Source: a virus
Length of the DNA: 24,935 nt
Direction: 5' to 3' (one strand)
Virus record (IMG/VR): IMGVR_UViG_3300031957_000831
Coordinates: 1 to 24,935 of that record
Made by a program: the position numbers and the translations under genes. Shown here piece by piece: positions 4,895-15,614 of the stretch. Position 1 is the first letter of the stretch. Each line of letters starts with the position of its first letter. The notes under the pieces were generated by a model, which saw nothing but the letters and a program-made list of their open reading frames with translations, made no database searches and had not been told where the DNA came from.

Positions 4895-6832
4895 CTACGA
4901 TGTTAAGGCTTGTTCACCAGTTTTTCTAATTAATGTATTGATTCCTTCGTTTACTTTAGTTAATAGTTGATTTGTTGTTTTAATTAAGGCTGTATTATCT
5001 ATCATAGCACCGCCACCAGAACCACCACCTATTGAGTCTGCGACATTTGATTGTTGAGCTGCATTTAATACAACTTCACCAGGAGTTAACATAGCAGGTA
5101 TTGTATCCGATGAACCAGGCACCCCACCATCTACACCAGCCATACCACCTTCTTCAAATCCCATAGCAGTTTTTCCTAATGCGAATAAACCAGCAGCTGC
5201 TGCAATTGCAAGAGGAATTCCTAAACCAAATGGAATCATACCAAATCCTGTGAATATAGAACCAACACCACTTGCAAGTGAAGCACCTATTCCGGCTACT
5301 CTTGTAGCCAACCCTTTAACTAAAGCAGTATTTTTACCCATTTCAAGAGCAAGAAGAGCAGTTTGAATTACTTGCATGCCCGCCATAGTTCCCATCATAA
5401 CCATCTGCATATCCATTTGCTTTCTTTGAGTTTCTGCTTGGTCTTCTTGAATTTGAGCAGAGGTTTTCTCACCAGCAACCATCTTACCTAAGTCAGCAAC
5501 ATTCATTCCAAGCGATTTAGCTAAAGCTTGTCTTTGAACCACATTCATCGCATTGAACTCTGCTTCCGAACCTACATTCTTTAATATTTCTTTTTGTAAC
5601 CCGTCTAAATCACCAGCAAGTGATAATTCCCTAGCCTTATCTAAATTAAGATTTTTTCCTAACAAAACTTCAGCTTCCATCTCATTGGTGATAGAACTTT
5701 CAAAGTCTAATAAAGACTCAGCAATACCAGCTACGGTAGACATATTCACACCGAGCTTTGCTGCTTGTATAGCTGCTAATCCGATGTTTTTTCCACCATC
5801 TTTACCAAATTTAGCAAAGAGTTCGGTATCAGAAGCCATATCATTTAATACTTGCGCTGGAGCAACTCCTTCTGCTCTAGCTAATTCACCTACTGTGGAT
5901 ATAAGATTTAAATTTGTCTCTATGGAAGCAGTGCTTATAGCATCCATAGACTTTAGTAACTTAGCAGCATTATCTCCACTTATACCAAACTGACCTGTTA
6001 TTAAACCTAATTGAGTAGATACTCCAAGAGTTACTACTGATAATGAACCAAATTCTCTAACCAAGCCTTTTACAGCAGCCTCAGCTTCTTGTGAGTTACC
6101 ACCGACAACTTTTGCAGCTGCACCGGCCGCTGTTATATTTCCAGCTAATTTAGCCGAATCTATTGCTGATATTCCTAACGATTGCCTTACTTCTAGCATT
6201 TTTCCGGCAAAGTCTGTTGCAATTTTAGCTGCTAAGCCTAAAGCAGCTACACCCATAGCTTTAGGGCTACTTAAAAGTGCTGAAGCTTCTGATATTTTAT
6301 CTTTGAAAGCATCTATTTTTGCTTGAGCATCAGCTTCCACTTTTAATTTTTTTGATAAATCGGGAGTTCCTTTTAAAACTTCTACTAACTCATCAGCCGC
6401 TCCATTTAAATCTCCGAAATCTTCTTCGGCTATTGTTCTTAAAGCTGACTCCAAGTCCATCGAGCCATTAGAAATACCCTCTAGTAATGTAGCATATTTT
6501 TTGGCATTTTTTATCTGTTCTACACTATCACCTTTTTGTATTTTTGCCAAGCCTACAAGCTGCTTTTCAAGACCTAATTCTTTCTGTGCAGCACCAAGAC
6601 CAGTATTCTTTATTCTTAAAATTTGCTTCTCTAAACTTAACTGATCAGCTTCTAAAAACTGACCTTTAGTTTTAGCAATTTTATCTTCTATATTAGAAAT
6701 TTCTCTTTGTAACTTTAAAGATTCTCTTAAAGCGGTCGTTCTCCTTTTATCAGCTTCATATAAACTCTGTTGAATAGACGCCTGTTCTTCTAATAGCTCC
6801 TTTTGTTCTTTTAAATCTGAAATTTTAGACAT
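4895..6832 (-). CDS. Tail tape measure protein
   Basis: At 645 residues it is close to T4 gp29 (590 aa), consistent with a tail of about 100 nm if the usual length rule holds. Residues 1-100 form a charged coiled coil (KEQKELLEEQASIQQSLYEA). Hydrophobic helices lie near residues 190-210, 475-505 and 525-565. The C-terminus has the tape-measure signature EEGGMAGVDGGVPGSSDTIP followed by AMLTPGEVVLNAAQQ and a glycine-rich linker. It sits directly after the gp26-family chaperone-like gene and before baseplate genes, as tape measures do. Its ATG overlaps the stop of the 56-aa gene as TAATG, so translation is probably coupled. In the tail it fills the tube lumen, sets length and is released ahead of DNA. 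Confidence 0.85.
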   Translation of the reverse strand: MSKISDLKEQKELLEEQASIQQSLYEADKRRTTALRESLKLQREISNIEDKIAKTKGQFLEADQLSLEKQILRIKNTGLGAAQKELGLEKQLVGLAKIQKGDSVEQIKNAKKYATLLEGISNGSMDLESALRTIAEEDFGDLNGAADELVEVLKGTPDLSKKLKVEADAQAKIDAFKDKISEASALLSSPKAMGVAALGLAAKIATDFAGKMLEVRQSLGISAIDSAKLAGNITAAGAAAKVVGGNSQEAEAAVKGLVREFGSLSVVTLGVSTQLGLITGQFGISGDNAAKLLKSMDAISTASIETNLNLISTVGELARAEGVAPAQVLNDMASDTELFAKFGKDGGKNIGLAAIQAAKLGVNMSTVAGIAESLLDFESSITNEMEAEVLLGKNLNLDKARELSLAGDLDGLQKEILKNVGSEAEFNAMNVVQRQALAKSLGMNVADLGKMVAGEKTSAQIQEDQAETQRKQMDMQMVMMGTMAGMQVIQTALLALEMGKNTALVKGLATRVAGIGASLASGVGSIFTGFGMIPFGLGIPLAIAAAAGLFALGKTAMGFEEGGMAGVDGGVPGSSDTIPAMLTPGEVVLNAAQQSNVADSIGGGSGGGAMIDNTALIKTTNQLLTKVNEGINTLIRKTGEQALTS

Positions 6833-7002
6833 TACTTTTTCTTATCTAACTTTTTGATTATTTTATCCCACTCATCATCCAATGCTCTTAAGCTTTTCTC
6901 AAGCTCAGGATTATCTTTCAATGTTTTTTTAGCAAATTTATTTAATCTTTTTTCTTTCCATTTCTCAAAAAAATTGAATAACATACTATCTCTCTTAGCC
7001 AT
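6832..7002 (-). CDS. Small hypothetical protein (56 aa) coupled to tape measure
   Basis: ATG at 7000-7002 is preceded by GGAGAG, and the frame runs 56 codons to TAA at 6832-6834, whose last base is the A of the tape measure ATG (TAATG). The peptide is highly charged and helical (FFEKWKEKRLNKFAKKTLKD near residues 11-30; KIIKKLDKKK at the end). No family recognised. A late-promoter-like motif lies 41 nt upstream. Position between the frameshift extension of the gp26-family gene and the tape measure suggests a tail-assembly helper, but that is inference from position only. The good ribosome binding site and the tight stop/start overlap are the reasons to call it real. Confidence 0.6.
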   Translation of the reverse strand: MAKRDSMLFNFFEKWKEKRLNKFAKKTLKDNPELEKSLRALDDEWDKIIKKLDKKK

Positions 7003-7060: not shown

Positions 7061-7294
7061 TTATTTTTTGAAGTTTGGATGAGAGCTTTTATTTTTACGA
7101 TTAGCCTTTTCCATCTCCTCATTTCTCTCCTTATAGTATTTAGAGAGCCTTTTAAAATAAAATTTTCTTAAATAGATAGGCATGTTATACACTTCGGAAA
7201 ATGAAAACATGCCCTGAGAATTAAAGCTTATTTGAAATAGTTGTTCGTGTATTTCTGTTTTGTAGCTAAGAGGAAGGCCAAAGAAACGTAACGG
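7061..7294 (-). CDS. Probable +1 frameshift extension of the gp26-family protein (gpGT-like T segment)
   Basis: A 77-codon frame opens after TGA (7295-7297) and ends at TAA (7061-7063). It has no ATG, GTG or TTG in its first 28 codons, so it is not a good independent gene, yet it encodes a protein-like sequence: FFGLPLSYKTEIHEQLFQIS, then MFSFSEVYNMPIYLRKFYFK and a charged C-terminus. I recall similar short segments (aromatic-rich, 'VYNMPI-x-LR-x-FY') following gp26-type genes in other T4-like phages. It is in the +1 frame relative to the 246-aa gene, and the two overlap for only 27 nt, containing TTT CTT TGG (7278-7286). A +1 slip on TTT would fuse residue 241 to this segment, giving about 314 residues. 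An internal ATG start (FSFSEVYN segment) is the alternative. Confidence 0.55.
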   Translation of the reverse strand, partial: PLRFFGLPLSYKTEIHEQLFQISFNSQGMFSFSEVYNMPIYLRKFYFKRLSKYYKERNEEMEKANRKNKSSHPNFKK

Positions 7295-8006
7295 TCATAG
7301 GGACCGTAAACTCCTTTTCAGTTCCTTCTGAATCTATATATGTAGATGTCATATCAACATCAGGCATTATACGAGAGACTTCATTTCTGAAAGCCATAGA
7401 GTCTCGTGATAAAAATTCATTTTCTACAAAGGAATTTATACTAGCTCTTTTGCTATCACCATCTATAGAAACTATCTGATATTTTAAACGTGTAGTTAAA
7501 TCATAACCAATACCATCTCCAATTTTTCTATATCCCTCTATTTCTTTTTCTATTTCTTTCTCATCGCCGGATGTAAGCAATTTAAATGTTAATTTTCTTT
7601 TAGTAGCAGGTAATTCAAAGTCAAATTCATTAACACCTTTAGATACCTTAGACTCATCTAACTTCTTATCTTTCAACTGAGTTAAATCAACCTCTATCTT
7701 TTGTCCATCATATTCTACACTATACTCTTTACCATATGCAAGAATACGAGCAGCTATAAGAACTGCGTTTTTATCTCCGATTAGTAAATCATCTATTTTG
7801 ATTGATTTATCTATTACTAAAGATTCTAATAACTTCTCAATCACCACACCTTTTTTAATTAAATTTGCCGATGTGAGGATATCCTCTTCTCTTGCCGTCA
7901 TATATTTTATTTCTATTTTACCACTAGATAAAGGACTATCTGTTGGATATAGTAATCCTTGTGACGGCAGATCCACTACTTCCGTAGGGAATTTAACTTC
8001 TGCCAT
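7266..8006 (-). CDS. T4 gp26-family baseplate / tail-assembly chaperone-like protein
   Basis: A 246-residue protein opening with EVKFPTEVVDLPSQGLLYPT and YMTAREEDILTSANLIKKGV, the typical start of the 'T4 bacteriophage base plate protein' family (PF12322, T4 gp26). T4 gp26 is about 208 aa. It lies between the tail tube region and the tape measure, the slot occupied in lambda-like tails by the G chaperone. The frame ends in FLWPSS; an extension in the +1 frame begins in the same place (see the frameshift entry), so two products, 246 and about 314 residues, are likely. ATG at 8004-8006 follows AGGAGTAAAAT. Family call is strong; chaperone role is inferred from gene order and the probable frameshift, and classical annotation would be baseplate hub subunit. 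Confidence 0.75.
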   Translation of the reverse strand: MAEVKFPTEVVDLPSQGLLYPTDSPLSSGKIEIKYMTAREEDILTSANLIKKGVVIEKLLESLVIDKSIKIDDLLIGDKNAVLIAARILAYGKEYSVEYDGQKIEVDLTQLKDKKLDESKVSKGVNEFDFELPATKRKLTFKLLTSGDEKEIEKEIEGYRKIGDGIGYDLTTRLKYQIVSIDGDSKRASINSFVENEFLSRDSMAFRNEVSRIMPDVDMTSTYIDSEGTEKEFTVPMTVTFLWPSS

Positions 8007-8038: not shown

Positions 8039-8248
8039 CTATTTTTTACCAAACTTTTCAGCAGCTGTAACTCCTAAACCGACAACGGTTATATACATAA
8101 AGCATTCTAATATCTTATCCTTAACCTCAAATGCTGTGAATGTATCTGCACCCCAACAACATATTAGCATAAAAAAAGAAGCGAAGCCAACAAATCTTTT
8201 TGAAGATATCTTGGCATCGCTTGATAACATTTCTTTTATAAATTGCAT
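8039..8248 (-). CDS. Small two-helix membrane protein, candidate holin
   Basis: A 69-residue protein with a short charged N-terminus (KEMLSSDAKISSKRF), a hydrophobic helix at about residues 18-37 (FVGFASFFMLICCWGADTF), a short turn containing charged residues (EVKDK), a second helix at about 46-62 (LECFMYITVVGLGVTAA) and a basic end (EKFGKK). 'SSKRF-x-G...LG-x-TAAEKF' is a recurring layout of small phage inner-membrane proteins, some annotated as holins. It starts 10 nt after the tail tube stop with AGAGGT as ribosome binding site. Two-helix hairpin topology fits a class II holin but no lysin is in the window, so the role is only a suggestion. Confidence 0.6.
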   Translation of the reverse strand: MQFIKEMLSSDAKISSKRFVGFASFFMLICCWGADTFTAFEVKDKILECFMYITVVGLGVTAAEKFGKK

Positions 8249-8258
8249 TCCGAACCTC

Positions 8259-8747
8259 TTAGAATTGTAAGATAGCGTAATCGTATCTTAGTGTTAGTGT
8301 TATGTCATTAGGTTCATTTGAATCCCAAGCCATATCACCGAAATTAGCAGATTGTATCATAGCACCTTTTAGTGTCCATTCCTCAACCTTATCACCTACA
8401 GGACCTAATACATTGAAAGTAATGTCTTTCTTATAGAAGTCTGAATACCCATCCCTACCGGTAACAGATTCTTTATGTAATCTTACCCATTCCATAACGG
8501 CTTGTGCGCCAGATGGAACAATTGGATCATAAAGAGTAACTTCTAAAGTATCCCAACTTCCCTTTCCTTTTACATATCTCTTTACATTGATATGATTTAA
8601 TTCTATTTCTTCAAATGTTATAGATGGTCTTGCAGCAGTTTTTATTAAATATGCAGGTATCCCTTCAATATACATAATGAACCTATTCTTAACCTTTGGT
8701 TCAAAAGGAGTGAACATTATTTCTGAAGGATCTATTAAATCTGGCAT
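8259..8747 (-). CDS. 19: Tail tube protein (gp19-like)
   Basis: At 162 residues this matches the length of T4 gp19 (163 aa). It has the tube-protein opening EPKVKNRFIMYIEGIPAYLI, the central AARPSITFEEIELNHINVKR and YVKGKGSWDTLEVTLYDPI, and the final strands ANFGDMAWDSNEPNDITLTL followed by RYDYA. These are hallmarks of the T4-like gp19 tube family (PF06841). The protein polymerises as hexameric rings to form the inner tail tube under the sheath. Its own promoter-like motif lies 33 nt upstream and AGGAG precedes the ATG. The gene is separated from the sheath by an independently transcribed 161-aa gene, unlike T4 where 18 and 19 are adjacent. Confidence 0.88.
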   Translation of the reverse strand: MPDLIDPSEIMFTPFEPKVKNRFIMYIEGIPAYLIKTAARPSITFEEIELNHINVKRYVKGKGSWDTLEVTLYDPIVPSGAQAVMEWVRLHKESVTGRDGYSDFYKKDITFNVLGPVGDKVEEWTLKGAMIQSANFGDMAWDSNEPNDITLTLRYDYAILQF

Positions 8748-12963: not shown

Positions 12964-13932
12964 TTACGAATTAAATTTACCCATAGTAACCACTTCATCG
13001 GTATAAGCATCTAAAGAATATCCTAAAGATGAAGTATTAACATTCAAAGCAAAGATAGAGCTATTTTGTTGAATTGAAAGAGCATCCGGCTCCATCAACA
13101 TTCCATTAATCCAAAAATAAAAATCGTTTAAATCGGTAGCCTTTAGTCTAAAATCATCAGATGCGGTTACGGCAGTGAAATGAACTGTATCTCCGCTTTG
13201 TATACTTCCTGTATGAACAAAATTCTTTCTTAAATGTTTATAGTTATGTATACTATCCAAATAGTTACGAGCGGTAAATTCGCTAACCAAGCTACTACTA
13301 CTTTCTCCATAAGCTAGTCCCATTTCTCTAAAAGAGGATGTTACATAAGCAATTGTCTTTACCCAAGGCTTTTGAGAAAAGTCATCGATGGTATAATTAT
13401 TAAAAGTAAAAGTGCTGTATTTAATATCACCTATCTGTTCTCCAGTCATAGAGAATGATCCGGATACTCCGTGAACATCATCATTGGTATCACCAAATAA
13501 TGTCGATCCGCTTTTAAATATTGCTGATGAGGTTACTCCACCATGAAGCACTATAAGATTTTTAGAGGATACCTTACCACCAACGAATAAACCAGCAGTT
13601 GGTGAGGGATTATAACCCTTTATCATACTAAAATCACCTGATATAACTAAGTCATGATACATATCGCCTGATCCTGATATACCATGATAATGTAAAATTA
13701 TATGTCTATCTTTTGTTCCAATAGTAACTGCTTTGCTTGAATTACCGCTGGCAGAAACTTGGTTGAATACAGGAGAAGCAGTAGGGTCTACTGCCTGTGC
13801 AATTTTAAAGTTTGTATTTGAATCGTCTGATACATCACCCATTGAAAAACTATCTGTTCGTATTCCATTGAGACTACCAGTTACCCCCAGTCCCATTTCA
13901 AAGGTTAATGGTTTTTTAAATACTATGGACAT
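12964..13932 (-). CDS. Fibre-like structural protein, paralogue of the gp15-fusion C-terminus
   Basis: A 322-residue protein, Ser/Gly/Thr-rich and made of short beta strands. It shares three blocks with the C-terminal half of the preceding 559-aa protein: FKSGSTLFGDTNDDVHGVSG (there LLSSGSTKFGDSLDDRHRFT), a 'YLRKN/HLRKNF' helix, and the last 60 residues including FYFWINGMLMEPDALSIQQN (there FIFFINGQYMEHDAISLKQN) and the shared end GKFNS. It starts 2 nt after the stop of that gene. The repeat type 'GSTxFGD-xxDDxHxxxGSxSxTG' is common in phage fibres and whiskers. Collar fibre or another virion fibre attached near the neck is the likely role; receptor binding is not shown. Confidence 0.6.
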   Translation of the reverse strand: MSIVFKKPLTFEMGLGVTGSLNGIRTDSFSMGDVSDDSNTNFKIAQAVDPTASPVFNQVSASGNSSKAVTIGTKDRHIILHYHGISGSGDMYHDLVISGDFSMIKGYNPSPTAGLFVGGKVSSKNLIVLHGGVTSSAIFKSGSTLFGDTNDDVHGVSGSFSMTGEQIGDIKYSTFTFNNYTIDDFSQKPWVKTIAYVTSSFREMGLAYGESSSSLVSEFTARNYLDSIHNYKHLRKNFVHTGSIQSGDTVHFTAVTASDDFRLKATDLNDFYFWINGMLMEPDALSIQQNSSIFALNVNTSSLGYSLDAYTDEVVTMGKFNS

Positions 13933-13934
13933 TA

Positions 13935-15614
13935 TTAACTATTAAACTTTCCGAAAGATACTATTTCATCATCAGCCTCTAAGCTATAACCTATACTACC
14001 AGTATCTACTTGTAGATGGAGCGTAGAACCATTCTGCTTTAATGATATAGCATCGTGTTCCATATATTGACCATTAATAAAAAATATGAAATCATTTTCG
14101 GTGGTTGGTGTATAGCCAGTTGGAGCTGAAGCGGTAACAGCACTAAAGCTTGCGGTATTCACTCCTACTATACCACTAGATATCTTGTAGTAATTTTTTC
14201 TAAGATAATTAATTATAGCAACATCTCTAGTATAATTAGAGCCTGTAAATTGAGTTAAAGCATTTTCAGTTATTAGCTTATGAGGTGAAGCGCTAGATGT
14301 TATAAGTCCACCATCATTTTCTATCTTAGTAACAGTGGTTTGATTTAATGTAAATGTTGAACCTGTGACTGATAAGCTACCTGTAAATCTGTGTCTATCA
14401 TCTAATGAGTCACCAAATTTTGTAGAACCGCTAGATAAAAGAAATGAAGATGAGACAATTTTTGTATGGTAGTCCGAAACCGTTAACGTTCCTGCTATAA
14501 TTGCATCACCACTAATAGACATATCACCGCCAACATTCCAAGAACCGGTTACATGCATACTACCACTAATAAAGTTATGACCAAATGTAGTTGGGTTACC
14601 AAGAACTAACTGACCAACTGAAAGTTCGTTGAATGTAACATCCGATGTTGTAGATATATGCTGACCTAATGATAAGGTATTGGTAACCGGAGTAGAACCA
14701 TCAAAGCCAACTGCAGAATCAGAGGTAATAGTTATGCCTTCACCACCTACAAATTTCAATGGAAAAGTTGTAGATAAAGCAAAGTTTGGATTTACTGGTG
14801 GATTTGAATCTTTTCCCTTAGCCTTCTTTAATTCATCAGGTGTGTATGTTGTATCTAAATTAAAAATTACTCTTTTAGGAGAAAATGATTTTTCGGTTGT
14901 TACTTTGTTATTAAATTCATCAGGAATCAAATAGCCGTTTAGAGTTACACTAAATGTAGTCTTAATAATTCTTTCTTGATTAATATTTATTTCACTAGCA
15001 TCCGTATAATTATCTATCTGTGTTCTGAATTTAAACTTACCATCTTCTCCCCAATAAGCGCCTTCGCTATAAACTAATTTTTCTACTATAGAGTTCATTT
15101 GTTCTGTATATGATGTCCACACAACAAAGTCATAACTTAGCTTTACATAATCAGGAACTGCAACTTTGTATAATTCTTTTGATTTATTTAATCCTTGTTG
15201 AACCGAAAATTTATCGTATCTATTTACATTACTATATTTTTTCTGAAAGCTATAGAACAATTGTGGATCTTGTGGGTTGAATTTATCAACAGACATACCA
15301 GCATCTTTTTCAATAGAAGTTCTTTTGAAAGCAATAAGCGGGATAACTAATTGTTGTTTATTATCGTAGAGAAATCCATTTTTTTGAACTTGATTCCACC
15401 TTTCAGGATTAGCATACATAATTGGAACTTTTACTAATGAACCATTTTCTGAAACTCGTGGTTTGATAACATTGTTAAAATAAAACATTATGGTTGAATC
15501 AATATCCATTAATCCAATCGATATATTTTTTACCTTATCATTATTTCTAGACCTTTTTAAACCACGATTTATAGGTTTTCTTCTATTTCTTGGTAACGGT
15601 TTGTCTCGTGCCAT
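13935..15614 (-). CDS. gp15-like tail completion protein fused to a fibre-like domain
   Basis: Residues 1-30 are a basic leader. Residues 36-235 follow T4 gp15 (tail sheath stabiliser / tail terminator) in order: FYFNNVIKPRVSENGSLVKV with PIMYANPERW (T4: 'RVPITYASKEHF'), KLSYDFVVWTSYTEQMNSIV (T4: 'MIYELSIFTRYEDDMFQIVE'), and TTFSVTLNGYLIPDEF (T4: 'LTFEVNGWMYPP'). T4 gp15 is 272 aa; here about 300 more residues follow, with beta-repeat fibre-like sequence (SGSMHVTGSWNVGGDMSISG, SSGSTKFGDSLDDRHRFTGS) and a C-terminal domain shared with the next gene. gp15 closes the tail tip and joins it to the neck, so the extra domain should project at the collar. Position after gp13- and gp14-like genes supports gp15. 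ATG overlaps the upstream stop as TAATG. Confidence 0.65.
   Translation of the reverse strand: MARDKPLPRNRRKPINRGLKRSRNNDKVKNISIGLMDIDSTIMFYFNNVIKPRVSENGSLVKVPIMYANPERWNQVQKNGFLYDNKQQLVIPLIAFKRTSIEKDAGMSVDKFNPQDPQLFYSFQKKYSNVNRYDKFSVQQGLNKSKELYKVAVPDYVKLSYDFVVWTSYTEQMNSIVEKLVYSEGAYWGEDGKFKFRTQIDNYTDASEININQERIIKTTFSVTLNGYLIPDEFNNKVTTEKSFSPKRVIFNLDTTYTPDELKKAKGKDSNPPVNPNFALSTTFPLKFVGGEGITITSDSAVGFDGSTPVTNTLSLGQHISTTSDVTFNELSVGQLVLGNPTTFGHNFISGSMHVTGSWNVGGDMSISGDAIIAGTLTVSDYHTKIVSSSFLLSSGSTKFGDSLDDRHRFTGSLSVTGSTFTLNQTTVTKIENDGGLITSSASPHKLITENALTQFTGSNYTRDVAIINYLRKNYYKISSGIVGVNTASFSAVTASAPTGYTPTTENDFIFFINGQYMEHDAISLKQNGSTLHLQVDTGSIGYSLEADDEIVSFGKFNS

Follow-up and report, generated by a model that had tools for sequence, protein, structure and literature searches.

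A probable tail assembly chaperone gene with an overlapping +1 segment

A probable tail assembly chaperone gene of a marine T4-like myophage was identified in a 24,935-nucleotide stretch of viral DNA (IMG/VR record IMGVR_UViG_3300031957_000831, hereafter the window), and it very probably yields two forms of the protein from one gene through a +1 frameshift, most likely at a YTT_TGG site. The features of the locus are listed in Table 1. The chaperone frame (ORF1) ends at the stop codon 7268-7266, while the +1 segment opens directly 3' of a TGA (7297-7295), is coding from 7294 to 7064, and has its earliest ATG at codon 29, with no ATG, GTG, or TTG among the preceding 28 codons. The candidate shift site, composed of the zero-frame codons TTT (7286-7284), CTT (7283-7281), TGG (7280-7278), and CCT (7277-7275), is located inside the overlap of the two frames, and its post-slip +1 reading is GGC CT. 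A preliminary description had reported both the 246-codon frame with its overlapping 77-codon segment and the opening of that segment without a start codon, and these coordinates were verified on the window sequence. Its central proposal, a +1 frameshift that would generate a pair similar to G/GT, is well supported by the conserved frame, the conserved site, and the selection described below.

Table 1. Features of the chaperone locus and the flanking tail genes, in positions of the window
Feature	Position	Strand	Description and evidence
TAC-N, gp26/gp51-family tail assembly chaperone ORF (ORF1)	7266..8006	-	246 aa, zero frame; PF12322/phrog_150 profiles, AlphaFold2
TAC-C, C-terminal extension, +1 frame	7061..7294	-	77 codons, stop 7063-7061; conservation, profile match
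Putative shift site TTT CTT TGG CCT (zero frame)	7275..7286	-	Site conservation, 155 loci
Candidate hairpin ACGGT-CCCTATG-ACCGT, just 5' of the shift site	7291..7307	-	Conserved in the window's own clade, absent from the Flavobacterium-type clade
Tail tube protein, gp19 family, upstream	8259..8747	-	phrog_4542, E=4.5e-29
Tape measure protein, downstream	4895..6832	-	BLASTP match (E=2e-19) to the protein annotated as tape measure in immuto

Conservation of the +1 frame and the putative shift site

Related viral loci were identified through two scans of viral contigs, where ORF1 and the segment were queried separately and a locus was counted if both could be placed. The segment was found in the +1 frame relative to ORF1 in all 151 such loci, which represent 91 distinct fused proteins, and TTTYTTTGGCCT occurred within every overlap. 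In addition, an independent scan of contigs from the genomes of bacteria and archaea (MAG contigs) identified 12 loci whose junction could be read, and several of these were binned as Bacteroidota. All 12 were +1, with TTTTTTTGGCCT present in 11 and TTTTTTTTCCCT in one. The interval from the ORF1 stop to the first ATG was compared among 85 sequences, where the +1 frame contained zero stops and had a pS of 0.62 and a pN of 0.06 (dN/dS ~0.05), while the other two frames demonstrated the opposite pattern, with stops present. The uniform frame relation in both collections and the selection on the +1 frame place the layout beyond chance.

The overlap and the frame relation about which the preliminary description had asked were recovered in the relatives, and the part of the site to emphasize is YTT_TGG instead of TTT-C. 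Among 155 loci, TTT CTT TGG CCT was the dominant variant (114 occurrences), followed by TTT TTT TGG CCT (39) and TTC TTT TGG CCT (2). When 35 representatives of less than 85% nucleotide identity were considered, 11 of the 12 site bases were invariant and the remaining base was either C or T. Two relatives have no TGG, LR756508 (TTT CTA TTC CCT) and L344 (TTT TTT TTC CCT), indicating that the site is not universal and that the slip codon may differ in them.

The +1 layout was also found in three isolated phages: Flavobacterium phage immuto (GGG GTT AGC TTT CTT TGG CCT), Microcystis phage Mel-JY01 (AAC TTT TTT TGG CCT), and Rhodothermus phage RM378 (TCC TTT TTT TGG AAT, followed by the +1 segment). 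The extension has been overlooked or split in present annotations, as the immuto annotation covers no more than a 36-codon fragment of the segment, and the segment is a separate hypothetical ORF starting at TTG in Mel-JY01. Immuto and Mel-JY01 each encode one member of the gp26/gp51 family, and T4 encodes two.

A +1-type chaperone locus was additionally observed at 2763506-2770258 of CP070664.1 (L353), a 2.8 Mb contig that is the chromosome of a WOR-3 MAG. A search of this genome for a Gp23 capsid gene found none, and the locus may be a prophage, a tail-like device, or a misassembly.

Membership in the gp26/gp51 family

ORF1 matched the phrog_150 "baseplate hub" profile with an E-value of 4e-8 and PF12322 with an E-value of 1.1e-4, where its 22.4 bits fell just below the cut-off of 24.5. 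The relative LR756508 scored 55.9 bits against PF12322, and T4 gp26 and gp51 are both full members of this family. Along the phrog_150 profile, gp51 covered positions 3-281 and gp26 covered no more than 10-236, indicating that gp51 is equivalent to gp26 plus an extension. The two proteins are paralogs, with gp26 being the copy without the C-terminal extension.

The extension of the window type was linked to gp51 through proteins with a -1 layout, which are described in the next section. In profile-profile comparisons, the window-type extension matched the -1-type extension (88%, E 2.8e-6), the whole fused proteins of the two types aligned along 238 columns (96%), and the C-terminus of T4 gp51 was in turn matched by the -1-type extension (96%, E 5.5e-9). 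A direct profile comparison of the window-type extension with T4 gp51 was not significant, and the long form is therefore assigned a gp51-type extension by way of this chain. Searches of the window-type profiles against the single T4 sequences of gp26, gp51, and gp28 also returned no match.

An AlphaFold2 model of ORF1 had a pLDDT of 89.9, and in BFVD it matched numerous baseplate hub and hub-assembly proteins of the T4-like type (best E 6e-20). A fold search of the same model against the PDB gave no significant match, the HK97 chaperone 2OB9 being among the insignificant ones, and the single-sequence AlphaFold model of the fused protein was poor.

Distribution of the +1, -1, duplicated, and split arrangements

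The phages P-SSM2, Syn9, HTVC008M, Cr30, and phiM12 encode a gp26-like ORF followed by a match in another frame to the extension part of phrog_150, and this other frame is -1, with T_TTT_TTY preceding the extension. Extensions of the -1 type were distributed among cyanophages, a pelagiphage, Sinorhizobium and Caulobacter phages, and KVP40. By the same frame-reading procedure, approximately 60 distinct cyanophage-type loci all contained TTTTTTC, and their intact segments were all -1. In KVP40 (L198, Straboviridae), a -1 site (GAT TTT TTC GTA TAA) and a gp51-type extension were read directly; the Straboviridae thus comprise both a frameshift-type layout (KVP40) and a duplicated one (T4).

A maximum-likelihood tree of ORF1 divided into a side that holds the -1 and duplicated forms and another that holds the +1 forms, and the arrangement labels required the minimum possible number of changes (3) on this tree, where RM378 and T4 are long branches of unsure exact placement. 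Nested within the +1 side is a pair of loci, L307 (a 187.8 kb contig) and L312, in which the segment (2694-2900 in each) does not open until the stop of ORF1, lies in the third frame, and has its own ATG and ~20-25 additional residues. The TTTGG was lost in L307, while L312 retains CTTTGGCC. Relatives with a separately started segment had been named beforehand as the case that would refute the frameshift; such relatives were found, although confined to this one nested pair. Their position in the tree suggests a later loss of the frameshift layout, and L307 and L312 read as descendants that start the segment separately.

It is likely that one deep half of the T4-like chaperone family uses a +1 shift at YUU_UGG without a stop codon or a Shine-Dalgarno (SD) stimulator, and that the same pair of proteins has been kept through the -1 shift, the +1 shift, the duplication in T4, and the split in L307 and L312. 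In a broad T4-like group the direction is probably +1 with the product unchanged, which suggests that selection maintains the short and long pair rather than the decoding trick.

Proposed mechanism

The conserved frame and site, the selection, the homology of both parts to the T4 and cyanophage proteins, and the gene order are seen in the sequences, and a model is inferred for whether and how efficiently the shift happens, which codon slips, whether ribosomes pause at TGG, and what the two chaperone forms do. Most ribosomes would finish at the ORF1 stop and produce the short form TAC-N, which would correspond to gpG of lambda and gp26 of T4. Some would instead slip at YTT_TGG near the end of ORF1 and continue in the +1 frame to produce the long form TAC-NC, which would carry a C-terminal domain of ~70 aa and correspond to lambda gpGT and T4 gp51. 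By analogy to lambda, the short form may coat the tape measure protein, while tail tube subunits may be recruited by the long form.

In the window, CTT would be the P-site slip codon and TGG the A-site codon, and the tRNA on CTT (or on TTT in relatives) would re-pair with the overlapping +1 triplet TTT, possibly assisted by slow filling of the A site at TGG. A peptide expected across the junction of the fused product is, for example, ...TVTFLGLPLSYK, and in immuto it would be GVSFLGLTPEYR if the +1 slip occurs at CTT or GVSFFGLTPEYR if it occurs at TTT. The preliminary description had offered slips at TTT-C and at CTT-T as two options, of which the latter is favored by the relatives L297-L309, where the site is TTC TTT TGG CCT. 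Because TCT does not pair either with the tRNA from TTC after a +1 slip or with that from TTT after a -2 slip, a +1 slip from TTT to TTT before TGG is what remains in these relatives, making YTT_TGG the most likely slip point on such pairing arguments. In LR756508, a slip on TTT-C would be needed.

No conserved downstream RNA structure was found in the family, and no SD sequence at a prfB-like position was seen upstream of the site, where a GGAG is located ~28 nt away. The upstream hairpin (ACGGT/ACCGT) is absent from the Flavobacterium-type clade. As it is kept in only part of the family, it was left out of the core claim, and its role in the shift is uncertain.

Alternative explanations

The downstream segment could instead be a separate small gene, translated from an internal start (the ATG at codon 29 or, in some relatives, a TTG at codon 9) or through reinitiation once ORF1 has terminated. 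This ATG is common among the loci of the window's clade, the annotations of Mel-JY01 and immuto include a separate ORF and a fragment, respectively, and the sister pair L307/L312 clearly has such a layout. However, strong purifying selection acts on the stretch from the ORF1 stop to this ATG, and many of the loci L054-L071 have their first possible ATG, GTG, or TTG late in the segment or have none. In nearly all relatives, the +1 frame also opens within ORF1 and takes in the FGL encoded at the shift site. A separate gene is therefore very unlikely.

The preferred +1 shift shares its final frame with a -2 shift, as in phage Mu, and the tRNA-Leu on CTT might conceivably pair with TTC two bases back. 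The two would differ at the junction, with F-L-G-L expected from +1 at CTT and F-L-F-G-L from -2. The bases before TTT vary among the relatives (ACG, TCG, CAG, CGA, and AAC), so that TTT would be unable to re-pair two bases back, and in relatives with TTC TTT TGG the tRNA-Phe would need to pair with TCT, which renders the -2 shift highly improbable. RNA polymerase slippage on the T-run, which would produce messages in the other frame, has a negligible probability: although TTTTTTT is present in some relatives (those with TTT TTT TGG), most loci, including the window, have TTTCTTT, a run too short and interrupted for such slippage.

Comparison with known systems

Frameshifts of tail chaperone genes are nearly always described as -1. 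The lambda gpG/gpGT proteins and other chaperone pairs resemble the system proposed here, in which a single gene would likewise give short and extended forms through a shift close to its 3' end, and the lambda genes are likewise located between the tail tube and tape measure genes, whereas the lambda shift is -1 and the one proposed here is +1. ORF1 belongs to the same family as T4 gp26 and gp51, and the extension corresponds to the part of gp51 missing from gp26, but in T4 the two forms are separate paralogous genes instead of the one gene with a +1 shift proposed here. The genes 26 and 51 of T4 were reportedly assigned as chaperone genes by Vladimirov, Gautam and Davidson in 2022. The gp26 genes of the cyanophage, pelagiphage, and KVP40 type have a homologous ORF1 and extension with a 3' overlap and a U-rich site, but shift -1 at T_TTT_TTY, in contrast to +1 at YTT_TGG. 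The canonical -1 heptamer (X_XXY_YYZ with a -1 extension) does not describe the present locus, whose extension is consistently +1. The prfB (release factor 2) site CUU_UGA is similar in that CUU in the P site re-pairs on UUU in the +1 direction, yet its A site is a stop codon with an upstream SD, while the site here has the sense codon UGG (CTT_TGG) and no SD-like element at the prfB spacing. The chaperone gene of the haloarchaeal myovirus HSTV-2 also has a shift that is very likely +1 (PMC5009743), a system of an archaeal virus likened here by its description.

T4 was long listed as the exception among long-tailed phages, in which Atkins and others (2016, PMC5009743) describe G-T frameshifting as conserved. 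As cited in PMC12846349 and PMC10885494, the tail assembly chaperone genes of T4-like phages were identified by Vladimirov, Gautam and Davidson (Virology 2022, PMID 34826709). The PRFect paper describes a short gene and a fused long gene as separate copies in some T4-like phages (PMC10885494), and poly-T signals in T4-like TAC-N genes are cited in PMC12846349. The earlier reading of gp26 as a tape-measure chaperone accordingly holds, but not as a novelty, the T4-like chaperones having been identified in 2022. No report of a +1 shift in the T4-like chaperone family was found in open papers, and against these papers the +1 version, its slip site on a sense codon, and the breadth of its occurrence appear to be new. 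The conserved YTT_TGG offers a compact natural system for the study of +1 slippage on a sense codon.

Neighboring genes in the window

The tail tube protein shares 53% identity with the immuto protein encoded directly ahead of the chaperone gene, and the gene order of tube, chaperone, and tape measure is that of G/GT-type genes. The earlier placement of the pair between the tail tube and tape measure genes is therefore correct, with the amendment that two small ORFs intervene. One of them (8039-8248), between the tail tube gene and ORF1, encodes a 69-aa protein with a hydrophobic stretch and no Pfam or PHROG match. The other (6832-7002), a charged ORF of 56 aa, separates the extension from the tape measure gene, whose start overlaps the stop of this ORF (TAATG).

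Rfam and tRNA scans across the window returned no matches. Elsewhere in the window, two adjacent proteins of 322 and 559 aa (12964-13932 and 13935-15614) are alike in their C-terminal domain, which is characterized by NYLRKN...INGxxMExDAxSxxQN...GKFNS, and are apparently paralogous.
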